Shown: positions 373 to 14,739 of the stretch, in pieces
Layout of the letters: every line of letters begins with the position of its first letter
How positions within the stretch are numbered: position 1 is the stretch's first letter
NCBI GenBank assembly: GCA_022824405.1
Contig: JAJDZZ010000019.1
Location: forward strand, 1 to 64,000
DNA from: Opitutales bacterium
GTDB lineage: Bacteria; Verrucomicrobiota; Verrucomicrobiia; Opitutales; UBA2995
Reading direction: 5' to 3'
Length of the DNA: 64,000 nucleotides
Translations under genes and position numbers: made by a program
Notes under the pieces: generated by a model
Databases searched by the model: none
Seen by the model: only the letters and a program-made list of their open reading frames with translations
What the model was told of the DNA's origin: nothing

Positions 373-3300
373 TTAAATTACCTGGGTTAGAAAGACACTC
401 GCCTCTTTGGATTTATCCATCAAGTTGTCCACACCGGAGGTCAAATCCCAACGAAACTGCTTTCTATCACCGCTTTGAGTTACCTCGGCTATGATCCGGC
501 GATCATGAAAATGTCCTCCCTCACCCTTGCGTCGTTGCACGTATCTGACAGGAACGGAACCAATGTTTCGGATCTTCAATTTCTTCTTGAATTCCCGTAT
601 CGTATCGCGTGGATGCCTGCCGGAGCGCGACGGATCCCATATCAGCGTCACTTTATTTACACAGCCACAGAGTGAAATGAGGTAATCGAGTAGCTCGGCG
701 GCGCTCTCGAGATTGTGCTCCCTGGAGAGCAAGTAAGGGTCCCGGATGGTAATGGCAGCCTTTTCCACGTTAATGAGAGGAGTGAAAACTTGGGCAAGGT
801 CGACAGCTTTTCCCACTGGAAAATCGAACCTCTTGGTGTCGCGCAAGAACTGGCCGAGGGCGTTGGACTCCGAGCTGCAACCTTGCTTAACGTGTTCGAT
901 ACGATCCTTAGTCGTGTTTGATATCTTACCTTCCACGAACACCGAGCCATTTGAAAGCAGCCCATTTAAGAGTGGACGGTCCCACTCTTGGGAGAAATAA
1001 CACTTTCCATTGGCCGCCGTGTCCACAACCAGCCTTGGGAACCCTGTTCGACGCTCAATTGGTCCCGATGCAAGGAATTTTAGTCGCCCTGCTTTCTCCA
1101 TCTCAGCAAGCATGGCAAGCGCTTTCAATTCCTCCCCGCTGGCCTCGGCAAGTGAGTCACGGATTGGATGTTCGGTAAAGATTCGGACCTTTCGATCAGG
1201 CGAAGCCTCCAACAGGTTCCTGATGAACCAAGCTGTTTCTCGTTGGCGTCCAAGATCTTCTCCTCCGGCAATTCTGGGAACGAAAATCTCAATATTCCGA
1301 GAACCACGAAGTCGTTCCAAAAGACCCGCCTCGGAAGGGACTTCCCATCGAACGGCTCCTTCTGGGGCAACCCCTTCCTTTATCTGCGCGCCTGCGGCAA
1401 GGGCTTCCAACCAAGGGAGCACTCGGTGGCGGTCGAATTCTTCCCAATGGGCTTGGTTGCCATAGTCGTTCAGACACCTCACACAAGAACTGGCGCAATC
1501 CGCATGGCATTTTAGAATTGCGAGTGCTTTCCTTACCAAATTCTTTGTCGAAAGTTGCCCGCCACTCCCAAGTCGGCGGGAATAACCTGCTCCGCCTGGT
1601 GTCGAGTCGTAAAGGATCACAACGGGTCGATGACCGTCCCTTTGAAAGGTGGCCGCCAAATCACGCGAATCGATTTGGAGCAATCGAACGGCAGCAAGGC
1701 GGAGGGCCTCCGCAAGAGTTCGCAGGAAGCTATCCTCGCCCGACTTCTCTTCGGGGTCGTCTTCGAATCTCGGGATCGGATTGGTGAAGGCAAAAGCGCG
1801 TACATCGGTCTCAAAAACATGCCCCAAGTCGACTGGAAATTTTAGCTCGGTTACTGGGCACTTGTCTCCTGTACGGGGATTGTCATGGTTTGTCTTGACG
1901 GGTTTCCCATACTTGGTGTCTTGGGTAGCAGGTTCGGCATACTCGCACTTCTCGCAGCGAAGGTAACCACCTCCATGAGGCCCTCGATTTACGATGAACA
2001 GCCGCCCCCGAAGATCTTCGTTGTCATCCCCTGGAAAAGCGGGAGCGTAAAAGGTCCGTGCACCTACCAAATCCGTGTCTTCGTATCGGTGAACAGGAGC
2101 CTGCGTAACTAGCCGAGCTTCATCTGCGGGACGTTGTCGAATGCGGGTCGATCCCGGATCTCTGCCTTTTCGGTCCTTCACCGAAGTCAAAAATCCCTTT
2201 GGCTCGATGAAATTACCTTGGCGGAAGTGTCCGGCAAATTTGGATGAGCACTGTGAACAGCGTCCATCAAAATCTTGGAGGTCATCCTTGATGTCCACAT
2301 GACCGCAGGAATTGCAAACCCTATACCTCTTGGTTGGCATAAATTCCTTGGGATAGCGGACGATTCCCCTGCTTGCCCAGATCCTGCCGCCAGCAACGAC
2401 CTCCGCTTCAGGGGCGTATTCGGAGATCGCTAATGTCGCCGAACGGTCGAGTTGAAGTTCGGCCTCCAGGTTCCCAAACGGGGTAGGTCTCTGCCCTTTT
2501 CCTCGAATGATCTCCAGCCTGCAAGTGTGAACCGGGAAGCTGTAAGTTGGAATCACCGCCGATCTGGAAAGGCCATCGACCAGAAATTGGTTGAGCAGGT
2601 TGGTTTGCTGACGTTGCATGATCGCCGCGATGATGTCTCGGTCGGCGTCTCGGGCCTCAATTCGCCGTTTTTGCAGGAGTTGCCAGCGAGAAGCGATGTC
2701 GTGAACGAACCGGCTCAACTCGTCACGAGTGTGTTTGGCCAGTTCGCTGCCCTGCAATCCGATAGGCCGGAATTCCTCGGGCAGGGTCGAAACAAGACGC
2801 TGTGCTTGATTCTTTGCATTAACCCCTTCTTTGCCCTCCAACCAATTTAGGAAGGTGTCCAAGAAAATGCTAACCTCGTCCTTTGTGAGGCTTTCACCAA
2901 ATAGATCTTTCAACTGAGGCGCGCCCATCCCAGTCTTCTCGATATGTTTACGGAGAAAGCGGGCGAGGATAATTGAAACCTGATGACGGCGGAAGAAATC
3001 GGCATTATCCAAGGCAAGGAAAGGAACGGGCGCCGGGTCTCCCAAATAGCGGTCGAATCTGCGGAAGCTTGCTTGGTCATAGTTGCTGTTGCGGGCAATC
3101 GTCAAAGCGACAGGTGCAGCTTGGGCTCTACGGCCTGCGCGACCGGTGCGTTGCTGATAGTTGACAACCCCAGGAGGTACGTTTTTGCAAACAATCGCTT
3201 CCAAGTCTCCGAGGTCGACTCCAAGTTCGAGTGTGGTTGTGCAGCTTAACAAATTGACCTTACCGATGCGGAAATTCTCCTCAATTGTTTCGCGTAGTTG

Positions 3301-6294
3301 ACCTCCAATAACCGCGCTGTGCTCCTTTGCCACCGCGTTGCTGCCCCCCTTAACTCTGTCAGTTTCCCTCAAATAGAGATGGGCGTAGTGGTTTTCCTTC
3401 TCAAGGGTCCGCCGGGCCTCTTTTGATAATTCTTCAAGATTCCCCTTACATTTCCAAGCGGGACAAACAGACCGAACGGAGCGAAAGGTGCGAGTCCCAC
3501 AGGTGTTGCATTCGTAAATTGGGAGATTACCCCCATCCGCAATACCGAACTTATCGAGATTCAGTCCGTATCCGACCCCAACTGGAAGAAGCAACCGTTC
3601 TCTCCTAGCCTGATGCCAAAACTCCTCCAAAACTTTGAACGCTAGATCTCGGGTTAGATTCAGTCTCGTCTCAAGTATCCATGTGGAACGGTTGGTGGTC
3701 GATCCCGCTGGCAGGAGTCCGAGAGTCGAACCGCGTTGTCTAGGCTTCCTTTCCAGAACAAAACATCGGCCTGACTGATTCTTAAAAGGCCCCCAGATGG
3801 TATCGTCCGTGAGGTCGAGTTCTTGTTGTGGATTCGCAATGGCCCGCTCACTGCGAATGCGGTCGAGCGTGAGTTCCACGAAGGCTTTGGCATCTCTGCC
3901 TTTCAGGCCTGCTCCAGTTTTTTCAATAGCTTCCACAATCCTTTCCAAACTCCCAAGGTCGTATTGCACTGACGCAATGCCCAAACCTTCGAGGGAAACC
4001 CTAACCAAACTCGGGGTGAAGAACTCCGCGACAATCTGAGCGTAAAGGGTATCCTTTGCATCGCCGTCACCCGAGTCCTCCATTCCATGATGTGCTTTAT
4101 AAGCCGCTCGGCCATGCAACCCCAACAGTTTCCAGACCCTGTTGCGGGCCTGCCGTAATGGGGTGCCTGTTGGTTCGGCATCCTTCCGAACAGCTTGGGC
4201 GATGCACGCTCGCAAGGCCAAGTCCATACTTGTCCGCTCAAAGAAAGGGGCGAAAAATGCGGCGTCCTGGCGGTTGTCCGAAAAAGCCAGGAGCTTCCGT
4301 CCGGCCAGCGGCCTCGGCTCGGAGGCGTGGTCTTGGCCGGGGAGGGCTTCAAAAAGGACTTGGGTTGCGACGGCAGCAAGCGCATCGTTTCCAGGGTGCA
4401 AGGGAGTGATTGGCTCCGGAAACCTGGATGCCCGGTTTCCACAAACTACGCACGCGTTCAGATAGCGACGCTTTTCCTCCTTGTCTTCCTTCAGTTCGCA
4501 TTTAATTACCCGCACTCTGCCAGAAACTTCGGCGGAACCCGCAATGCCCGTTTTGGGATCAATGTATACAATCTCCTCAGCCTCATTTGAGACTCCCTCT
4601 TCGGGATCCAATTCCATCGCGGCGTCCTTCGCCAATGCGACAATGCGAAATACGGCGCGTTCGGATCCAGGAATGGGCTTTCCGGACATCTTCCCATTGC
4701 GGTACCAACCTTCCAGATACGGCTCACCACAGTTGCGGCAAGATAAGAGACTGAAATAAGGAACACCATCAGGGTCGTTGTGGGATTTCTTGGGGCGAAA
4801 GTCAGACCAACCTTCCTCGGCTTCGGCATCCAGTCGAACAACTCCTCCCTCGATCCCAGTGAGGGCCAAATGATAGCGAGCCGGAAGAATCGGGAATTCG
4901 TAGTTGTTTGGCCGAGAGAAAACGGCGGTCCTGATCATGGAGCGAAGAGCCGAATTGCTCGTCTCCGGATCGGATTCGGGAAAGACCTTCTTTGCAAGAT
5001 ATTCAAAAGATCGGAGTCCTTGGGCAAGTTCTTGAGCGACTATGCGGACTTCGGAAATTGTGGCCAGGCGACGTGTGAGAGTTTTTTTTAATTCTGGCTG
5101 ATTTAGTTGGAGCAAATCGTCCAAATCTTCGCAATAAATATTCCAATCCTCTACCGTGGGGTTCTCCTCCTCTTGCATAACGTTGACAACTTCCCCTAAT
5201 TCCTTCCATTGGTCCGCTCCAAGGGAAATCTGTGCGTGTCCCTTCTTAAGGTCCGGATGAAGTTCTCGGCCTCCGGAGATTAAGCCGGCTCTCGAATCAA
5301 ACTTCTCCCCAAAGAGATCCGAGGCGAATCCGGCAAGTTCTTTGCGGTTTTCGACATTGAGACTCGCGCTCGTGCCGATTACCTGGAGGTTTCCGGATTC
5401 CAAACCGAGCTGAACTTTCAATTTGCGAAGAAGAAATGCCACTTCGATTGCCTGGGCCCCAGTGTAAGTATGGATTTCGTCCAACACAAGGAACCGAAGG
5501 CGCGCATTGTGGAAAAGTGGAGCGTTGCGAGGAAGGAGTAGGAGGTGCTCCAACATCGCATAGTTTGTGATAAGTATATGGGGAGGTGTTTCCAGCATTT
5601 CCGAGCGGGAGAGGAGCCAGGATTTGGAAAGGCGGGTAATGGTCGGTTCCAACCCCAAGGCGTCTCTCAGAGCATCGTTATCGAGCAAGCGAGATTCCTC
5701 CTGGCGCCTGTTCGCATTTGCCCGGACTTGGCCCGTGAACCGACCGAATGTGATGCCTGGGTCATTGAGTTGCCTGAGCAGCATTGGAGCCAAGCGGAAA
5801 TAGAGTTGATCGTTAGCGAGGGCGTTCAACGGGTAAATAATTACCGCTCTCACCCCTGGCGTTCCCAAATTTCCTTCGCGAAGTAGTTGATCGACCAACG
5901 GTAACAAAAAGCACTCCGTTTTCCCGGAACCTGTTCCTGTTGCAACAATGAAATTCAGGTTTTTGGCGGCCTGCCGAATGGCGCGCTCCTGATGCTTATG
6001 AAGAGGGCGGTGGAGGATTCGTTCGAAACCCGTTTCCTGCATGACTCGCCACTTATCAGCCATAACCCCGGAATCTATAAGTTCGCGAATCGACCCTCGC
6101 TTTTTAAAATCTGGCAGGTTCTCCAGAAATGGGCCCTTTGTCAAAAGGGTCGACTCAGATTTTAACGCATTCCTAACGGCACGAGCGAGTTTCGGGGCGC
6201 GGGTGTCTGACACGGGGACCGCGGTTGAAATGTAACGGGCGAGCGTTTCTCGAAGGCGATCTCTCAACCGCAAGGGATTCAGATCGCGAGCCAT
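373..6294 (-). CDS. druE: DruE-like giant DEAD/DEAH helicase with DUF1998 (Druantia type III candidate)
   Basis: Predicted anti-phage superfamily 2 helicase of 1973 residues. Seen: Walker A ATGTGSGKTE at about 118-127, DEIH box at about 272-275, and motif VI YQQRTGRAGRR further on. There are several Cys-pair zinc motifs (CRNCGEP, CVVCGN, CNTCGTR, CNSCGH) and a DUF1998-type cluster CASSCVRCLNDYGNQ. The C-terminus carries an HDRR motif followed by GVDNLMD, resembling a degenerate phospholipase D-like domain. DUF1998 helicases of about 1800-2100 residues are the DruE hallmark of Druantia; MrfA/YprA relatives are only about 750 residues. It starts 3 bp after the stop of the druH-like gene, so the two are probably co-transcribed and coupled. 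Helicase identity is near certain; assignment to Druantia III rests on size, DUF1998 and partner. Confidence 0.85.
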   Translation of the reverse strand: MARDLNPLRLRDRLRETLARYISTAVPVSDTRAPKLARAVRNALKSESTLLTKGPFLENLPDFKKRGSIRELIDSGVMADKWRVMQETGFERILHRPLHKHQERAIRQAAKNLNFIVATGTGSGKTECFLLPLVDQLLREGNLGTPGVRAVIIYPLNALANDQLYFRLAPMLLRQLNDPGITFGRFTGQVRANANRRQEESRLLDNDALRDALGLEPTITRLSKSWLLSRSEMLETPPHILITNYAMLEHLLLLPRNAPLFHNARLRFLVLDEIHTYTGAQAIEVAFLLRKLKVQLGLESGNLQVIGTSASLNVENRKELAGFASDLFGEKFDSRAGLISGGRELHPDLKKGHAQISLGADQWKELGEVVNVMQEEENPTVEDWNIYCEDLDDLLQLNQPELKKTLTRRLATISEVRIVAQELAQGLRSFEYLAKKVFPESDPETSNSALRSMIRTAVFSRPNNYEFPILPARYHLALTGIEGGVVRLDAEAEEGWSDFRPKKSHNDPDGVPYFSLLSCRNCGEPYLEGWYRNGKMSGKPIPGSERAVFRIVALAKDAAMELDPEEGVSNEAEEIVYIDPKTGIAGSAEVSGRVRVIKCELKEDKEEKRRYLNACVVCGNRASRFPEPITPLHPGNDALAAVATQVLFEALPGQDHASEPRPLAGRKLLAFSDNRQDAAFFAPFFERTSMDLALRACIAQAVRKDAEPTGTPLRQARNRVWKLLGLHGRAAYKAHHGMEDSGDGDAKDTLYAQIVAEFFTPSLVRVSLEGLGIASVQYDLGSLERIVEAIEKTGAGLKGRDAKAFVELTLDRIRSERAIANPQQELDLTDDTIWGPFKNQSGRCFVLERKPRQRGSTLGLLPAGSTTNRSTWILETRLNLTRDLAFKVLEEFWHQARRERLLLPVGVGYGLNLDKFGIADGGNLPIYECNTCGTRTFRSVRSVCPAWKCKGNLEELSKEARRTLEKENHYAHLYLRETDRVKGGSNAVAKEHSAVIGGQLRETIEENFRIGKVNLLSCTTTLELGVDLGDLEAIVCKNVPPGVVNYQQRTGRAGRRAQAAPVALTIARNSNYDQASFRRFDRYLGDPAPVPFLALDNADFFRRHQVSIILARFLRKHIEKTGMGAPQLKDLFGESLTKDEVSIFLDTFLNWLEGKEGVNAKNQAQRLVSTLPEEFRPIGLQGSELAKHTRDELSRFVHDIASRWQLLQKRRIEARDADRDIIAAIMQRQQTNLLNQFLVDGLSRSAVIPTYSFPVHTCRLEIIRGKGQRPTPFGNLEAELQLDRSATLAISEYAPEAEVVAGGRIWASRGIVRYPKEFMPTKRYRVCNSCGHVDIKDDLQDFDGRCSQCSSKFAGHFRQGNFIEPKGFLTSVKDRKGRDPGSTRIRQRPADEARLVTQAPVHRYEDTDLVGARTFYAPAFPGDDNEDLRGRLFIVNRGPHGGGYLRCEKCEYAEPATQDTKYGKPVKTNHDNPRTGDKCPVTELKFPVDLGHVFETDVRAFAFTNPIPRFEDDPEEKSGEDSFLRTLAEALRLAAVRLLQIDSRDLAATFQRDGHRPVVILYDSTPGGAGYSRRLGSGGQLSTKNLVRKALAILKCHADCASSCVRCLNDYGNQAHWEEFDRHRVLPWLEALAAGAQIKEGVAPEGAVRWEVPSEAGLLERLRGSRNIEIFVPRIAGGEDLGRQRETAWFIRNLLEASPDRKVRIFTEHPIRDSLAEASGEELKALAMLAEMEKAGRLKFLASGPIERRTGFPRLVVDTAANGKCYFSQEWDRPLLNGLLSNGSVFVEGKISNTTKDRIEHVKQGCSSESNALGQFLRDTKRFDFPVGKAVDLAQVFTPLINVEKAAITIRDPYLLSREHNLESAAELLDYLISLCGCVNKVTLIWDPSRSGRHPRDTIREFKKKLKIRNIGSVPVRYVQRRKGEGGHFHDRRIIAEVTQSGDRKQFRWDLTSGVDNLMDKSKEASVFLTQVI

Positions 6295-6297
6295 TCG

Positions 6298-9200
6298 CTA
6301 TTTCGTTTCATGCTTTTCGACCAGCGTCCACAGAAGAAGGTAGAAGGCCAGGAGTTCCGGAGCGAGCCGGAGAAGCGTGCCTATATGTTTTTGCACTTTA
6401 TCCATTGGCAAATTCGCCTTTGTCGCCAAATCCTGCCAAAACCATTCCACATTCTCTTTCCGCCAAGCCTTGCTAAGTGCTGAAATCACTCTTGGAGCGC
6501 CTTGGACCAAAGCGAATCCGTCTTCCAAATCATGGGGTAAATCCATAGCCGTGGTTTCGTGCCGCTTGAAGTGTTCCACAAGGGCCAGCACCTTGGAAAA
6601 ACGGGTTCCTTCCGAAGCGATCGCAACCCGGTCCGCCATTCGCTCGCACGCTCTGTCGTGGTGCCAGATCGATAAGGGTTTATCATCATCCGCTATTTTC
6701 TCCATAGTTCGGGCATACTGACAATATCGTGAGAAGTTGAATGCTCCCGGAGAAGCATTGGGGTTGCTTTGAAAGAATTGGAAGTTTTTGAATGCTATCA
6801 GGAAGGTCGGGCTGACATCCAAGCCCTTCACTGCATCTTCCAAGGACTCTGTAAGTCCGGCGAGGCCGACCGACTCGAACTCTTCGTAACCGGACATAGT
6901 ACTCAACCCTAACTGTCCGATATCCTCCGCATTGACGGTGAAAAGATCGGGGCAGACTTCAATGGGATGATGGAAGGGAATCCAACTCTCCCTCGCATGA
7001 GATTGGGGCGGAAGGGCGCAGGCTTTCAGCAAAGTTGATCGATGGGCATGTTTGGAGAGGTCAAGGGAATTTCCCAACCGCCTCCATGCGTTCAAGGCTT
7101 CAAAATACCCGTTGCTACGGCATTGCCTAGCGATTGGGGTTTCCATGATTCGGCTCAGTTGTAGAAAAGCCTTAGCCCTATTCGGTTCTGGACACCATTC
7201 CGAAATATCTCCATAGCCCAGTTCTTCGGCGTATGATTCTGATGTTATGCAGGTGGCGAAGGTTTCCCCACGAGAATTTATGAGGGGAAGGAATTCCATG
7301 CGGTCTTTTTCACGGATTTGGAAGCTTACAAACCAAACCCCGTCCGGGTATTTATCCTGGTCGATTTCGATGTGAATTTGAGTCGATTCGTCAGTCTTAA
7401 TTGCCGAAGCGAGAGGGAAGTCATTCCGATGATTTAGTGGAGATAGCAAGGGTAGGTTTTCTTGCAGCTTTTCCCCAAAAACCAAATTCTCAGCCTCTAT
7501 ACGCACTTCCTCTATAGGGCGTTGAAAGACTGCCTCAAATTTCCAAGAAGTCGCGCCAAGAGGTTGGGCATGGAACTCCGTGGGTTCCGCTTCTGGAACA
7601 ACGCGAACCAATACCCGTCCAAAACTCTGATTCCCGTTTGAATGAAGCCGAACCTCGTTGTGTTTCCCTTTTTGCTTTAGTCTTGCAAAAGACACCGACC
7701 ATTTTCCTATTTTACCGAACGCGTTTGGGATTATTTCCCCTTTCAAGTTAATCGCAGCTTTCGGGTCCGAATAGCGCACGATCAAGCTCGATGCAAAATC
7801 ATCTCTCACAGAAATCAAACCTCCCACCTTCAAGGGACGCACCGCTCCATCGGACTTCCGAACGGACAAGGAAACTCCGGGTGGTTTCAGGCTGAAACTG
7901 ACCAACCGATGATGGTCCACCAAGAAACAAAGGCGAGCTCGCAAATAAGCCTCACCCTCAAGGAGCGCCAAGCGGTTGTGATGGTCCCAATCGATATGCC
8001 TGAGCTGCTCTTTCGCGAGGTTTTTGGGCATCGATTTGGAAAAAAAGACTCCGTCGTTTAGTCGATCCAGACCTGGCCAAAACCAGAACTTTGTCCGGTA
8101 TAGAGCACGATCCTGTCCCCTTATGTGAAGGGAAGCTCGCGCCATTCCGAAGTGACCTGTCGTTGGCATTTCGGGGTCGGCGGCAAGAAGGCCATCGGAA
8201 GTGCTTAGGACGGGAATCCGAATCTCCTTGTCCAAGGCGGGATGTGAGATTCGCGCTTCCAGCCCTTCCGAAGCGTCGCCACTCCGACCAAGGATTCGAA
8301 GCGATATCGGCCCAGCCAATAACCACCCATCCCGGTTCCGAACGATTCTTTTTCCTACTACCTCCATTCGAAGACGCGCCTCCACATCCACTTCGCATTG
8401 GAAATCCTGCTGAAGGAGGTCTACTTTTCCCGAGATGTCGTAGAAGAGAACGAAACCTTCGGGACCCAAGGGGTGGCACCTTTCCTCATTGATTTGGAAT
8501 GCAGTTGAAGACAGGAACCAGAGTTGCCCAGCTCGAACCCTTTGCCCGCTATTTTTGGCAGGATTAAAATATCCTCGGTGGATGCCCGTCTCACCATCGA
8601 AAACCAAGATGCTTCGGCTTTCCGAAATAACCGGAAAGGGCCTCCAGCCATTGACTGCGTCGCCAGGTCTCCTCCATTCTATTGCCGAAGGCCATGGCAA
8701 GGAAAGGGCCAGCCTGCCACCGCGGCTAAGCGGGTGGACTTTTCTGTTTATCTTCACTTCCAACCTGCTTGCATGACGTGGGATTGACACCCACAATTCG
8801 CCGTCAGAGAACTCAAGAGTGAGGGGTGGAAGGTCGGTTTTCTTGCCCTTTAAAGCGGATTCGGGAGGATTCTGAATCGCCCTTTGGAATTCACGTTCAA
8901 ACTCCGAGTTTGGGGATTTCTGATGGCGAAGACGGATAAAAGTGGCAGCATGATACCCGGTCGGGTCCCCTCGGACGATGCGGCGAAGCACTTTGAGACC
9001 AGGCGGAGCAAACTCCACTGCCCTGTCCTCCCAATCATCAACTTCACGTGTTTCGTAGGCATTTGGTAGACCCATGAGGCTCTCAGCCTTCAGAAAAGCG
9101 CCCGCGAGAGAAGGTAATTGTTTGCGCGACACACCTGCTTGAAAAAGGTAGGCATCCACATAACGCTCCCCAGTGTCGGATGGGAGTGCCAAACCGATCT

Positions 9201-9558
9201 TCTCACAACTATTCCTGAATTTTATGAAAAAAGAGAAACGTTCATGATGTGGGATACCTTCACTATTCAGGTCTAAACTCTTTTCGATGTGTTTATAGAC
9301 TGCAGCATAGTCTCCCTCTTTTCCATAAGACTGCGAGAGAGCGGTGGCCACCACTCTTGTGCTGACGCAAGGGAAACTGCCCATTAATGAAAGGAAACAA
9401 TAGAAGTCCCCCCGGATCCACTCCACGAGTTCCGCATGGGCTTCCTTTTCAATCTCAGGTCGCACATCACAGTGTGCAATGAAGGGGGAGCCTTGTGATG
9501 CGGAAAGCTTTTCCAACAAAGCCTTTTCAAAGCGTTGGACAGACTCCAAAAATGTCAT
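6298..9558 (-). CDS. druH: DruH-like large protein of unknown fold, partner of the DruE-like helicase
   Basis: A 1086-residue protein with no enzymatic motif I can recognise. The first ~230 residues look helical, the middle (about 250-750) is rich in alternating beta-type segments, and the last ~300 are helical again with many Trp and His residues. Druantia type III consists of only two genes, druH (about 1000-1100 residues, unknown function) and druE; size, order and the 3-bp spacing to the helicase match. It may correspond to the YjiT/STY4851 family found beside similar helicases in enterobacteria, but that is from memory. There is no signal peptide or membrane segment, so it is cytoplasmic. 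The promoter should lie in 9559-9697. Confidence 0.7.
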   Translation of the reverse strand: MTFLESVQRFEKALLEKLSASQGSPFIAHCDVRPEIEKEAHAELVEWIRGDFYCFLSLMGSFPCVSTRVVATALSQSYGKEGDYAAVYKHIEKSLDLNSEGIPHHERFSFFIKFRNSCEKIGLALPSDTGERYVDAYLFQAGVSRKQLPSLAGAFLKAESLMGLPNAYETREVDDWEDRAVEFAPPGLKVLRRIVRGDPTGYHAATFIRLRHQKSPNSEFEREFQRAIQNPPESALKGKKTDLPPLTLEFSDGELWVSIPRHASRLEVKINRKVHPLSRGGRLALSLPWPSAIEWRRPGDAVNGWRPFPVISESRSILVFDGETGIHRGYFNPAKNSGQRVRAGQLWFLSSTAFQINEERCHPLGPEGFVLFYDISGKVDLLQQDFQCEVDVEARLRMEVVGKRIVRNRDGWLLAGPISLRILGRSGDASEGLEARISHPALDKEIRIPVLSTSDGLLAADPEMPTTGHFGMARASLHIRGQDRALYRTKFWFWPGLDRLNDGVFFSKSMPKNLAKEQLRHIDWDHHNRLALLEGEAYLRARLCFLVDHHRLVSFSLKPPGVSLSVRKSDGAVRPLKVGGLISVRDDFASSLIVRYSDPKAAINLKGEIIPNAFGKIGKWSVSFARLKQKGKHNEVRLHSNGNQSFGRVLVRVVPEAEPTEFHAQPLGATSWKFEAVFQRPIEEVRIEAENLVFGEKLQENLPLLSPLNHRNDFPLASAIKTDESTQIHIEIDQDKYPDGVWFVSFQIREKDRMEFLPLINSRGETFATCITSESYAEELGYGDISEWCPEPNRAKAFLQLSRIMETPIARQCRSNGYFEALNAWRRLGNSLDLSKHAHRSTLLKACALPPQSHARESWIPFHHPIEVCPDLFTVNAEDIGQLGLSTMSGYEEFESVGLAGLTESLEDAVKGLDVSPTFLIAFKNFQFFQSNPNASPGAFNFSRYCQYARTMEKIADDDKPLSIWHHDRACERMADRVAIASEGTRFSKVLALVEHFKRHETTAMDLPHDLEDGFALVQGAPRVISALSKAWRKENVEWFWQDLATKANLPMDKVQKHIGTLLRLAPELLAFYLLLWTLVEKHETK

Positions 9559-9764: not shown

Positions 9765-12344
9765 TTAAACCTTTACCGCCTCATACAGGCTTTTCTTGAA
9801 CTGGTTTTCATCCTCCAGGTTATAAAAGGGCACGCCTACCAGTCTGAATTTTTCCGTTTTTCCCAAGGTGTTGAATTCCAATGTTTTTCCCTCGAATTTT
9901 TCCGTCAACTGTTTCAAGAAGTCCTGTTTCCATTTATCGCCGGCTTTCAGGTGTTTTCCCTTTGGTTCCACAAATACCTGGTAGGTGAGCAAGTTCCCAT
10001 CACGTTCCCGCAAAAACAGAACAAAATCCGGCTCAAATGCTTGGCCGTCATCGAATCGGTAGATTTTGAAATGCCTTTCGTTACGCATCAGGTAAATGCT
10101 GTCGTACTTTTTTCTCAGGTTTTCCATTTGCCGGTCGAGCATGCGAACGAAGGCCTTTTCCTCGCTAGTGCCGTAAATGGTATTGAAGGGAAACCAGTCC
10201 TTGGAGGATACGAAATGGGCGAATTGCGCGTCTTCTTTCGACTGTGGGCTTCGAGGGTCAAATTTCAACGCTTTATCCTTGAAGATTTTATGGGCTCTAA
10301 AGCTCCTGAAACCTCTCGAACCTTCGAATTCGGTGATTTGCTGGCGAATTTCAGACTCGATTTGGCGTAAGAGCCCACTGACGGCTTCTCGTTGTTCAAC
10401 CCGGTTGTCTTTCAGACCGGACACTCGGCCCTCAAAGGTGATTTCCAAGCCCCCAAGATAATTTTCAGATTCAATGAACTCCCGGATGGATCCCAAATTT
10501 GGGAAATAGCGTCTCAGGGAGGCAAAGGTAAAGAACGGATTGCGTGCAATGGCAGACTGAACAATGTTCCGGTTGATGTCTCTAACCCTCATATCCCGGC
10601 GGTTTTCATCTTTCACAATCAAGCCCTGTCCCCCATCCTCCAAAACGGTTTGAGCACCGCCGTGACCTGTGGCAATTTCGTGAATGTGGTTTTTCATCTT
10701 CACCCCCAAATCAGTAAAGGATTTTACGTTCTGATAATTTCTTCGGCGGCGGTCATTGAGCCAAACCACACCAAATTTGAAGAAGTTGGTCTTCTTAAAG
10801 GAGTCTTTGAGCTTCAATTTGCGGATCACTTCGCGTTCATCCATCATACCCTGGGCAATCAGGGCTGTTCGGAGCTCAGAAATATACCGAGAATCATGGA
10901 TACTATGGTAATGCAACTCCTCCAGAACGCGTAATTCATTTTCTAGGTCATCGTCAAACTTCCGACGGAAACGATCAGAATTCTCAGATAACGCAAATGG
11001 GAAATAACGGGCCCCGCGACCAATGAGCTGGGCCTCGGAAATGGTCGTTTTCCCAATTCTGTTCTTTCCCGAATCACGCGTTTCGTAACAGCGGACGATG
11101 TCAAAGAGATTGAGCACATCCCAACCTTCGTTGAGTTTTTGCACGGCAAAAATAGCGCGGATGGGATTGTCCCGGTCTTCCAGTGTGTTGACGAGGATTT
11201 GGTGTTTCTCCTTTTCTTTTTCCGCATTGACGGAGATGCAGTGATCTTCATGGAAGGCCCGCTTCAATCGTTCCGCCAATTGGGCGTCGCTGATATGATG
11301 AGCTTCAAAAAATTGAAATGCCCGCCAAACGAGGGCAATATCCGAACTGCGAAGGCGGGCTATATCCTCTTCCGTAAGAGACTCAACCAATTTGTGAAAG
11401 TTGGCCTTGTTCTCCCGGGACTGGGCAATGGTGCGCTGGGCTTTGAATAAAATTACAGGTTTGAGGTTGATCTGGTATTTAGCAGCCACTTCCTGTTTGT
11501 ATTGATTGAGAATGAGGGCTTGCAGGATACGCTCGTTCAGATCGAAATCGGATTGCACGATGACCACATCTTTGGAGAAACGGTCGTTGCGGAACTGCAA
11601 CAAGTCATACCGATTTAACACCTTGTTGCGGTACTTTTCCACCATCGTCGGCGTTTCGAAATCGTGCGTGGCGGTGAACTCCAACAGGAGATTATCTTCA
11701 TTTTGACGGAAGATCCGTTCGACGGTATTTTCCCAACTTTCCAACAATTCCCTGCCGGATTTGGTACTGACGTTGATATGGTGGGCCTCATCTGCCAAAA
11801 GGGCGATTTGCTTGTCCCTGAAATCCTCATAGGTAATGGCGTTTTCCTTTTCCGTGGTCAGATCGGAATGCAGTCTCTGGATGGTGGTGAAACAGATATT
11901 GATATCATTATCGTTGACCCCCTCAAAATTGGGGCACTGCGTTACCGAAATACGGTTGGACCCGAAATGAATCGTTTCATTAAATAGATACTTGGATGAA
12001 ATGGAGTTGAGGAAATTGTCCCGCGTCTTTTCGATGATGTTGGTGGAGTTGACGAAGAAGAGAAAATTGCGATAGCCCTTTTCATACAGGTAGAGTATCA
12101 ACCCCGCCATGATGAGGGTTTTCCCGCTACCGGTGGCCATGTTGAAGAGAAAATGCAGGGGCCAGTCCTTTCCCGGAAAGTTTTTTTCGAAGCAGTGGAA
12201 GAACCGAGTAAAGGCCTCTTCCTGATAGGGGCGCAATTCAAATTTCGGGTTCAAATTGTCCTTGAGACAGGAAGGGATTTCCCTTCTCAGAAACCCCATT
12301 TGGGAGACGGAATCGAGCGTCTCATATAAAAATTTGTCCGCCAT
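9765..12344 (-). CDS. res: Type III restriction enzyme Res subunit (helicase-endonuclease)
   Basis: Restriction subunit of a type III R-M system: ATP-dependent translocation plus DNA cleavage when bound to Mod. Seen: Walker A ATGSGKT at about 70-76, a DEAH box (LLADEAHHIN) near 185, helicase motifs through about 480, and a C-terminal PD-(D/E)xK-type nuclease with FEPDFVLFL followed by VFVEPKG near 770-795. Total 859 residues, normal for Res. I chose the ATG at 12344 over the TTG one codon upstream because it forms a TGATG overlap with the stop of the RelE-like gene, implying termination-reinitiation. It is the third gene of mod-relE-res. No lesion in the nuclease motifs is evident, so the enzyme looks intact. 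Confidence 0.93.
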   Translation of the reverse strand: MADKFLYETLDSVSQMGFLRREIPSCLKDNLNPKFELRPYQEEAFTRFFHCFEKNFPGKDWPLHFLFNMATGSGKTLIMAGLILYLYEKGYRNFLFFVNSTNIIEKTRDNFLNSISSKYLFNETIHFGSNRISVTQCPNFEGVNDNDINICFTTIQRLHSDLTTEKENAITYEDFRDKQIALLADEAHHINVSTKSGRELLESWENTVERIFRQNEDNLLLEFTATHDFETPTMVEKYRNKVLNRYDLLQFRNDRFSKDVVIVQSDFDLNERILQALILNQYKQEVAAKYQINLKPVILFKAQRTIAQSRENKANFHKLVESLTEEDIARLRSSDIALVWRAFQFFEAHHISDAQLAERLKRAFHEDHCISVNAEKEKEKHQILVNTLEDRDNPIRAIFAVQKLNEGWDVLNLFDIVRCYETRDSGKNRIGKTTISEAQLIGRGARYFPFALSENSDRFRRKFDDDLENELRVLEELHYHSIHDSRYISELRTALIAQGMMDEREVIRKLKLKDSFKKTNFFKFGVVWLNDRRRRNYQNVKSFTDLGVKMKNHIHEIATGHGGAQTVLEDGGQGLIVKDENRRDMRVRDINRNIVQSAIARNPFFTFASLRRYFPNLGSIREFIESENYLGGLEITFEGRVSGLKDNRVEQREAVSGLLRQIESEIRQQITEFEGSRGFRSFRAHKIFKDKALKFDPRSPQSKEDAQFAHFVSSKDWFPFNTIYGTSEEKAFVRMLDRQMENLRKKYDSIYLMRNERHFKIYRFDDGQAFEPDFVLFLRERDGNLLTYQVFVEPKGKHLKAGDKWKQDFLKQLTEKFEGKTLEFNTLGKTEKFRLVGVPFYNLEDENQFKKSLYEAVKV

Positions 12345-12610
12345 CAAAATTTGTCTCTGTAGACTTTCCTGCGATGTTGAATACGGTGGACTTCAATGTA
12401 CCTTTTATTTCGGTCAATGGAATAGAGGATGCGGTAATGGCCCACACGAAGTCTGAAGAAGCCTTGCTTTGGTCCGGTGAGGGCCCGCAGTTTAGTGGCC
12501 TCAAGGTTTTCGGCCAACCATCGCAACTTTCCATTTACGCGCTTTGCCGTGGCCCTGTCCAAACGACCTTCATCCGATCGGGCGCGGTCCGTAAAAACCA
12601 CGCCATACAT
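12344..12610 (-). CDS. RelE/YoeB-family toxin inserted between mod and res
   Basis: An 88-residue RelE/ParE-superfamily protein, expected to be a ribosome-dependent mRNA endonuclease. The pattern fits the family well: VVFTDRA at the start, KLRWLAEN in the middle helix, GFFRLRVGHYRILYSID over the central strands, and VHRIQHRRKVYRD at the C-terminus, where the basic and Tyr residues of the active site normally lie. The ATG at 12610 makes a TAATG overlap with the mod stop; an in-frame ATG at 12616 is the alternative. Its own stop overlaps the res start. There is no separate antitoxin ORF on either side. The C-terminal tail of Mod has antitoxin-like character and may neutralise it. Confidence 0.9.
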   Translation of the reverse strand: MYGVVFTDRARSDEGRLDRATAKRVNGKLRWLAENLEATKLRALTGPKQGFFRLRVGHYRILYSIDRNKRYIEVHRIQHRRKVYRDKF

Positions 12611-14739
12611 TACCATTTCAGCCCCAGATTTTCGGCCACTTTCTCTGCCGGGATAGTCCTTGCCCCGGCTTTTACCTCGGCGATGGACTGCTCGAGTTCC
12701 GCGACAAATTCCTCCCGCAATTCCAACCCCTCATCCGGGTCAATATCGTAGAACTCCTCGTTCAGTTCCTTGTCTTCCTCGCTGATTTTGAAATCCCCAT
12801 CGTCAATCTCGGAAAGATTCACATACAACTGGTTCTTATCAAGAAGTTCCGCCAGTAATTTCCTCTGTTTGTTCCGCCCGTTTTCCCCTTTGCCGATGGC
12901 AATGAAATCATCAAGGGCATCCTCCGGGGCTTCAGGGTTCACATACCAGTTCAAAAACGAATTTTCAGCGATGTCTCGCCAGAGGGCGACAAGTTCCCTG
13001 GAGGATCGAGCGGCTTGAATTTTGCCCATGAAGGCTTCATTGTATGGCATTAATTCACAATAGACAAAATCCCCGCCGCCCTTCCAGCCAACGGACTTGG
13101 AGATGCCTCCGGTGTCGTATTCGAACTCTTCGAGCGGTTTCCCGTCCGCATTTACTTTTTTACCAACAACTTTCTTTAACCTCTCAATGGTGAGAGCTTC
13201 AACATAATCCATTTGTTCAACTGTAATCCATTGGCGGTTCATCTTGTGAGCGACGGCAGCAGTAGTAGCAGAACCTGCGAAGAAATCTAAAACAATATCT
13301 CTCTCTTCGGTGCAGATTTTAACCACATCCTTAATTAGAAAAGGAGATTTTGGATAGCTGAATACCTTGTCACCAAAAAGTTTCTTCAACTCGTTTGTAG
13401 CAGTCTGTCCTGTATACTTTGAATCTAGCCATAAAGTCTTTGGTTTTTCACCCAGGTAATCATCTTCTCTTTCCTTGATATAAATATCATATCTAGTTCC
13501 TTTCGTCTTTACTTCGATATATTTTTCAATCCTCTTTATCAAAGTTTTCTGTCCCCACCTCCAACATCTTTCAACACCCTTTTCATCAATCGGCAATATC
13601 TTTACGGAATTGTGGCGGTGTTCCAAATCTAAATGCCTAGTTGCCGGATTGTAATAAATAGGGTAAAAAAGTTTTGGCCGTTGTTCACGTTTTGAATTAT
13701 TTCCACTGCGTCTAAAACCTCGCAATTTGTAATTTCCAAAAGAATCACTGCATCTATATTGCGAAATTTTTTTTTGGCTCATGTCCAAACGATTGAGCTT
13801 TGAACGGGTAATGTTTTTTGCATAAAACAACATGCTTTCATGAGCAGTCGGAAAGAAAGCATCATCTTGACGACCACCTGGGTTGTGGGCAACTGATATA
13901 ACTCCTATTCGGTTCTCTCGGCCGAAAATCTCATCAAGCAGAACACCAAGGTAAAAAAGTTCATAGTGATCAATCGCTACCACTAAAATACCATCTTCGA
14001 TCAAAAAATTTCTGGCAATTTCTAACCGATTTTTCATAAAAGTGAGCCAAGCACTGTGATTGAAAGTGTTGTTATAGGTAAATGTATTAGCAGCAGACTT
14101 TGTGTTAAACGGGGGATCGATATAAATCAGTTTTATCTTTCCTTGGAATTGCTTTTTCAGGGTATGCAACGCCAAAAGGTTGTTGCCCTTGATGATGAGA
14201 TTCTCGCTGAGAGTATTGTCCTTGCCGCGTCTCAATCCCATTACCTCCTCTTCCCCATTCACCGTATGGCGTTTCCAGTTGGTCAATACCTTTGGATCAA
14301 ATAGCCTGTCAATTTCGTCCTGGGCCAGAATTTCATTAAAGAATATCTCCTTCCGCTTTTCCTCTTCCCTGGTCTGGCCCCCTTCCAGGACACAATCCTT
14401 GTAGGGCCATGCCAATGACACCTCGCCTCGCTGCCGGAGGAATTTTTTATCGATGTTCAATCCGATTTTGTTGCGGAAACGAGTGTAGGAATTGGCCAGG
14501 AAGTTTTTTTCGGAAAGGTAATCAATGAAGGTGTTGGTGTTGAAAACCCAATGCCCCTCAATTTCATCAAAGAATTTCGCCTTGATTTCGGGATCGCCGA
14601 TCAATCGTTTTACAAGATCGTGGTCGATCTTCCAGGCCCGGTCGATCACCGCGGCCTTGACCAATTCCCCCTCTTCATCGACAAAACGGGGGTCGTTTTG
14701 TAGGAGGTCGATGAGCCTCTGGTGGAAATTTTTCGGCAT
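12610..14739 (-). CDS. mod: Type III R-M methyltransferase Mod with antitoxin-like C-terminal extension
   Basis: N6-adenine (beta-class) DNA methyltransferase of 709 residues, the modification and specificity subunit of a type III system. Seen: catalytic motif IV DPPFNT near 208, the SAM-binding FxG motif in DFFAGSATTA near 484, and the presumed target-recognition domain between them (about 300-480). That domain is encoded by a strikingly AT-rich stretch, suggesting specificity exchange. Typical relatives end shortly after a sequence like LNEEFYD. Here about 45 further residues (665-709) follow, with ELEQSIAEVKAGARTIPAEK and a closing LGL-type end, the style of RelB/Phd antitoxin tails. It overlaps the downstream RelE-like toxin gene (TAATG). 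The methylase call is firm; the tail function is inference. Confidence 0.93.
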   Translation of the reverse strand: MPKNFHQRLIDLLQNDPRFVDEEGELVKAAVIDRAWKIDHDLVKRLIGDPEIKAKFFDEIEGHWVFNTNTFIDYLSEKNFLANSYTRFRNKIGLNIDKKFLRQRGEVSLAWPYKDCVLEGGQTREEEKRKEIFFNEILAQDEIDRLFDPKVLTNWKRHTVNGEEEVMGLRRGKDNTLSENLIIKGNNLLALHTLKKQFQGKIKLIYIDPPFNTKSAANTFTYNNTFNHSAWLTFMKNRLEIARNFLIEDGILVVAIDHYELFYLGVLLDEIFGRENRIGVISVAHNPGGRQDDAFFPTAHESMLFYAKNITRSKLNRLDMSQKKISQYRCSDSFGNYKLRGFRRSGNNSKREQRPKLFYPIYYNPATRHLDLEHRHNSVKILPIDEKGVERCWRWGQKTLIKRIEKYIEVKTKGTRYDIYIKEREDDYLGEKPKTLWLDSKYTGQTATNELKKLFGDKVFSYPKSPFLIKDVVKICTEERDIVLDFFAGSATTAAVAHKMNRQWITVEQMDYVEALTIERLKKVVGKKVNADGKPLEEFEYDTGGISKSVGWKGGGDFVYCELMPYNEAFMGKIQAARSSRELVALWRDIAENSFLNWYVNPEAPEDALDDFIAIGKGENGRNKQRKLLAELLDKNQLYVNLSEIDDGDFKISEEDKELNEEFYDIDPDEGLELREEFVAELEQSIAEVKAGARTIPAEKVAENLGLKW

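Follow-up and report, generated by a model that had tools for sequence, protein, structure and literature searches.

A putative Druantia III-like operon in an Opitutales genome that pairs a DruE-type helicase with a partner protein family outside the databases

When a very large protein without a recognised family is directly followed by a DUF1998 helicase, is the pair a Druantia type III system (DruH-DruE), or is it a different system built on the same plan? The question is raised by an operon at one end of a 64,000-nucleotide stretch of DNA (the window) from an Opitutales bacterium (GCA_022824405.1, contig JAJDZZ010000019.1), whose genome comprises 3.4 Mb in 92 contigs. The initial annotation proposed a Druantia type III-like system, consisting of a 1973-residue DUF1998 helicase and a 1086-residue protein 3 bp apart. 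ORF reading confirms both genes: each starts with ATG on the minus strand, and 3 bases separate the TAG stop of the partner (here H) from the ATG of the helicase (here E). The two ORFs can be regarded as real because the frames are too long to arise by chance and because order, strand and close spacing are conserved in 61 homologous pairs. The order, partner before helicase, and the sizes agree with the druH-druE layout, as had been claimed. The contig (G000:C11) ends at base 1 of the window, and the view 3' of E is restricted to 372 bp. The features discussed below are the following.

6298..9558, minus strand: gene H, 1086 aa, helicase partner without a family in Pfam, NCBIfam or PADLOC (63 full-length relatives)
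8824..9558, minus strand: H residues 1-245, all-helical head domain (AlphaFold2 model; hhalign to the cyanobacterial first protein)
7243..8820, minus strand: H residues 247-772, predicted chain of beta-sandwich (Ig-like) domains (AlphaFold2; Foldseek and VIA)
6307..7239, minus strand: H residues 774-1084, helical tail, in which LRLAPEL(F) is a signature of the family (AlphaFold2; family alignment)
373..6294, minus strand: gene E, 1973 aa, DruE/YprA-family superfamily-2 helicase (PADLOC, Pfam, PDB match)
5359..6009, minus strand: E residues 96-312, RecA1; Walker A reads ATGTGSGKTE (K125), and the Walker B/DEAH-box position reads DEIH (Pfam, motifs)
1471..1716, minus strand: E residues 1527-1608, MZB/DUF1998 zinc-binding module (Pfam PF09369, E 2e-12)
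376..1317, minus strand: E residues 1660-1973, C-terminal region that can be aligned to the PLD-like part of DruE from Druantia III (alignment)
9765..12347, minus strand: type III restriction enzyme (res), a neighbour outside the pair, defence-island context (PADLOC, Pfam)
12610..14739, minus strand: type III modification methylase (mod), a neighbour outside the pair, context (PADLOC, Pfam)

Judged from its sequence, E is a helicase of the Druantia/YprA clade with a fused MZB/DUF1998 module. The Pfam families DEAD, Helicase_C and MZB/DUF1998 all match above cut-off, and the ATPase motifs are kept, with DEIH replacing DEAH. In PADLOC the highest scores are those of DruE1 (605 bits) and DruE3 (562), against DpdJ (88), BrxHI (78) and DrmA (44). 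Among PDB entries the closest is 9tu7 (E 2e-69), taken to be DruE of the E. coli Druantia III since PMC13192584 reports a cryo-EM structure of DruE and DruH is 9tud; MrfA/YprA (6znp) matches weakly (1e-17). The C-terminus has the conserved motifs DPYLL ... HFHDR ... D(L/V)(S/T)SG(V/I)DN, and residues 1660-1973 can be aligned to the part of DruE III that is PLD-like, through the segments D(R/P)YL and D-x-G together with a motif of H-x-R type, HFHDR in E. The C-terminus also matches that of ZorD in PADLOC and, weakly and below cut-off, the PLD-like family MIT_C in Pfam. One mark of Druantia type III is a pair of C-terminal PLD-like domains in DruE, the last of which is active; in E, the motif alone makes the C-terminal region a candidate nuclease.

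H had been likened to DruH by size and order. Up to an E-value of 1 it matches nothing in Pfam, NCBIfam (including YjiT, NF038336) or PADLOC (including the DruH models), and phmmer returns no PDB sequence match, DruH 9tud included. A 59-sequence H profile likewise does not retrieve 9tud, and a ten-sequence DruH profile does. The negative result is informative because the same libraries, applied in a control scan to ten other proteins, recognise true DruH, distant ones included (positive controls from E. coli, Azotobacter, Sinorhizobium and Chryseobacterium; L036-L039). Profile-profile comparison of H with ten DruH proteins by hhalign gave probabilities of 0.1-0.3%, at the level of the controls; the head of H alone scored 15 against DruH, with a shuffled maximum of 18 and a reversed control of 16, and this value also lies within the range of unrelated controls. 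The weak alignment sits at corresponding N-terminal positions, which is not evidence on its own. At convergence (63 full-length members) the H profile recruits no canonical DruH and no cyanobacterial protein from the same set; the wide alignments of H and DruH were too diverse for pattern scans. Profile searches do not support the identification of H as DruH, and true DruH proteins match under the same conditions. No description of the H partner family was found in the literature.

In the AlphaFold2 model of H (59 sequences; pLDDT 87.8), helices occupy residues 1-236, strands and beta-sandwiches 247-772, and helices again 774-1084. The middle part matches Ig-like, FnIII and complement-type beta-sandwiches (Foldseek and VIA; Z about 8 for residues 396-495), and the head modelled alone (pLDDT 92.5) has no PDB match with Z above 4.2. 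DruH contains Ig-like domains at 257-748, with helical regions on either side (PMC13192584). According to the model, H and DruH would share a three-part plan in which Ig-like domains lie between a helical head and a helical tail; such a plan is generic and does not prove homology between H and DruH. 9tud is not among the listed Foldseek and VIA matches for whole H or for the head, and it may lie outside the fold library. The head domain of H does recur elsewhere: cyanobacterial three-gene operons encode it as the N-terminal part of their first protein (hhalign 84%, score 45, shuffled maximum 19), and this shared domain links the partner proteins on neighbouring branches of E.

The family to which the pair belongs was opened by a search of IMG/VR with a six-helicase profile, which led to a locus (L049) where an H relative (242 bits) adjoins an E relative (1517 bits); scans of IMG/VR with single proteins gave no matches. 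A GTDB genome scan with the window E and the L049 E returned 80 loci, a biased sample and no census, in that the patterns came from two helicases. In the scanned loci an H relative immediately precedes E, and the hosts include Rhodobacterales, Rhizobiales, Azospirillum, Verrucomicrobia, Acidobacteria and Bryobacterales. Among 61 pairs with the same order and strand, H and E overlap by 4 bp at the median. The identities of H and of E, computed pairwise over 53 loci, vary together (Spearman 0.955), with medians of 20% for H and 44% for E, i.e. H diverges far faster. H-E is a real conserved unit. It is also often located in defence islands: relatives adjoin McrBC, HsdR, GmrSD, type III-like Mod, RNase H-like/helicase proteins and a serine recombinase, and the pair of the window lies after the type III mod/res operon, across a gap of 206 bp with a terminator-like hairpin (hairpins of this kind are no commoner than chance in the window).

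The H-E pair moves between bacteria. A tree of 86 sequences places the window E beside the Microvirga and Rhizobium proteins, away from the members from Verrucomicrobia, and a phylum-wide search of 388 genomes found H in the window genome only, plus one weak match. This patchy occurrence of H, together with the kinship of E to alphaproteobacterial members, fits the expectation for a mobile defence module. No H was found in phage records, and the sole relative from the plasmid search is a truncated gene on pMl2 of Sinorhizobium medicae (L004, 8962-10401; 25% identity over residues 7-326). It adjoins insertion sequences, has no helicase within 19 kb around it, and is apparently a decayed copy of an H-E system.

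The neighbouring restriction operon has peculiarities of its own. A RelE/ParE toxin gene (12344-12616, minus strand; Pfam E 1e-10) lies between mod and res, overlaps mod by 7 bp and has no antitoxin gene of its own. The Mod protein (12610-14739, minus strand) has a C-terminal extension of about 42 aa (ELEQSIAEVKAGARTIPAEKVAENLGL); Mod relatives of the same phylum stop near residue 665 and lack it. The extension weakly resembles RelB-like antitoxins (NCBIfam, E 0.023). Mod may be a methylase fused to an antitoxin, which would keep the toxin within the restriction operon in check.

The position of E among its relatives bears directly on the question posed at the outset. The H-paired E family forms one clade with full support in the 86-sequence tree and joins the cyanobacterial group and a group of G008, Ruminococcus-phage and Chloroflexi sequences; canonical Druantia III groups with Druantia I, and ARMADA falls outside the Druantia helicases. 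A reduced IQ-TREE analysis again unites canonical III with I (SH-aLRT 96), and a tree constrained to unite the E family with canonical III is worse by 27 log units (p-AU 0.046), a marginal rejection in which long branches are involved. On these topologies, E and its operon are a lineage separate from canonical Druantia III, and the branching of E with the canonical type III helicases, as initially supposed, is found in neither tree. Plain Druantia type III, with H as a very diverged DruH and E as a diverged DruE III, is for this reason doubtful, all the more so as H does not give the DruH or YjiT profile match that distant true DruH do give, and its profile-profile score against DruH is at control level. 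What speaks for it is the agreement in gene order, sizes and domain plan, the N-terminal placement of the weak H-DruH alignment, and the cyanobacterial proteins with the H head domain, whose own weak alignment to DruH covers the same motif region. An operon for DNA repair or housekeeping built around an MrfA/YprA-type helicase, rather than for defence, is very improbable: superfamily and zinc module are the same and 6znp matches weakly, but the DruE models lead by hundreds of bits, the C-terminal region is common with DruE, and the patchy distribution, the transfer and the restriction-system neighbours disfavour repair. PADLOC scores and both trees led to the rejection of MrfA/repair helicases, DISARM and ARMADA. 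In E, DUF1998 is fused and does not reside in a separate DrmB gene as in DISARM, and DrmA scores 44 bits against 605 for DruE.

A fairly probable reading is that the pair belongs to a branch of YprA helicases described as "Druantia Type III-like" and phylogenetically distinct from type III (Bell et al. 2025, PMC12458937), i.e. their yellow branch, possibly III-A or III-B, so that H alone would be undescribed. PLD domains are occasional in those helicases, Vsr occurs sometimes, and most have no nuclease (PMC12458937); separation from type III and variable C-terminal nuclease domains are also seen in the E family and its sister groups, which include long forms and short, nuclease-free ones, and DruH is absent from the main text of that paper. 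The likeness is one of description; the reference sequences of that branch are GIH50614.1 and MES1925543.1. Membership in that branch is compatible with the explanation that appears most likely from the sequences, namely a Druantia III-like sensor-plus-helicase system whose partner family lies outside the databases, and not plain Druantia III. H and E together probably form an anti-phage defence operon whose two-gene design resembles that of Druantia III. The type III-like label given initially is thus upheld in part: the clade of E, the druH-druE layout and the DruH domain plan favour it, and the DruH profile, the profile-profile score and the branching of E do not. Two findings had been named beforehand as counting against it, of which the lack of a DruH profile match was obtained and a grouping of the helicase with MrfA/DISARM was not, E being placed in the Druantia/YprA clade by PADLOC and by the trees. 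The remark that the mechanism of DruH is unknown is outdated, as it is treated in PMC13192584 and PMC13316683 (2026), and occurrence outside Enterobacteria is no novelty, since M. smegmatis and many lineages carry Druantia III (PMC13316683, PMC13192584).

Part of the family has a third gene. In 26 of the pairs (about half of those sampled), E stops near residue 1650 and is without the C-terminal domain, and downstream of 22 of these 26 short forms lies a gene for a protein of about 2000 aa (L080, L082-L084, L086, L087, L089-L092, L096, L098, L100, L106, L108, L115-L117, L119, L124, L128 and L134). Three of the large proteins were scanned and gave weak matches to AAA/STAND-type ATPases and no convincing PADLOC match; a Walker-A-like motif, GGRQLGKS, near residue 1330 is common to all seven inspected. 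The NTPase gene accompanies short E and was not seen beside any long E in the scanned loci, which suggests that the effector function may have moved to a separate protein in the three-gene branch and makes the NTPase of about 2000 aa a candidate third component of a Druantia-like type. It is possible, if somewhat short of probable, that these loci represent a widespread Druantia-like lineage (Alphaproteobacteria, Verrucomicrobia, Acidobacteria and others) with a sensor non-homologous to DruH, in which a sub-branch swapped the C-terminal nuclease-like domain for the NTPase of about 2000 aa, forming an H-E-NTPase defence type.

DruE-like helicases were also encountered with other partners. A Ruminococcus phage (NatCom_28274; L048, 3092-10542) has a pair of genes between those for endolysin and DNA processing, one encoding an unknown protein of 926 aa and the other a 1558 aa DruE-like helicase; the 926-aa protein has no detectable kinship to H, and the pair is possibly a phage-borne defence system. 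A genome of the same phylum as the window (L046, 4440-14068, minus strand) has a pair of a 1131 aa protein, which matches neither DruH nor H, and a 2076 aa DruE-like helicase, which forms a long branch near canonical Druantia III in the 86-sequence tree. The ORF upstream of the G008 helicase carries an S9 ribosomal domain and was dismissed as a partner, and matches on actinobacterial plasmids were set aside as they resembled ARMADA or other operons and not DruH-DruE.

There is a good probability, by analogy, that H-E would work like Druantia III. DruE is a dimeric helicase with peripheral PLD domains that loads on 3' ssDNA, DruH is likely the sensor, and DruH diverges fast and DruE slowly (PMC13192584); contact between DruH and DruE is needed, and phage DNA replication is blocked (PMC13316683). 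On this model, H may recognise a phage component or the state of infection via its fast-evolving Ig-like surface and then release or recruit (license) E, which would load onto the 3' single strands of phage replication intermediates and translocate; the C-terminal domain of E, or an NTPase-linked effector in the three-gene branch, would then damage the phage DNA. H is a large family (at least 63 full-length members) that stands beside a defence-type helicase and is unnamed by the annotation libraries used. Should H fill the role of DruH despite a different or unrecognisable sequence, a comparison between them would reveal the features on which the sensor depends, e.g. the Ig-like surface, the helical head or the contact with DruE. 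In practical terms, the PADLOC DruH models miss H, so that a tool needing both components would overlook H-E systems. The three-gene branch, in turn, is a natural experiment in which the C-terminal domain of E is absent where the giant NTPase gene appears, and it makes the question of the effector domain testable.

Comparison with known systems places H-E as follows. With Druantia type I it shares the top PADLOC model for E (DruE1); DruA-DruD are not present in the window, with its downstream view of 372 bp, and H matches none of them. ARMADA and DISARM resemble it in having a YprA-family helicase in a defence island; unlike in ARMADA, there is no BrxHII-like helicase or PglX methylase beside E (372 bp downstream), whose neighbours are H and the type III mod/res genes. 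The cyanobacterial three-gene DruE operons (Nostoc linckia, Pseudanabaena and Fremyella plasmids; L029, L031, L033) have an E on the neighbouring branch that is 26-27% identical, and a first protein which, at 855-967 aa, is shorter than H and carries the H-type head domain. They differ by an extra gene of 307-310 aa between this first protein and the DruE-like helicase of about 2100 aa; their first two proteins have no convincing PADLOC match and, in L029, no Pfam match. The III-like branch of Bell et al. is, as the E family is, separate from canonical III, with the C-terminal nuclease present or absent; its partner gene is not described in the main text (PMC12458937), and that of the E family is H. 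The closest likeness is to Druantia III (DruH-DruE of E. coli ATCC 8739 and M. smegmatis; PMC13192584, PMC13316683), which also has two genes of similar lengths in the order partner to helicase. Its DruE combines a helicase bearing the MZB module with a PLD-like C-terminal region, to which E aligns likewise, and its partner, like H, evolves faster than the helicase and, as in the model of H, has a helical head, an Ig-like middle and a helical tail. H-E differs from it in that H is without the DruH/YjiT signature, E has a branch of its own, and a sub-branch combines a short E with an NTPase gene.
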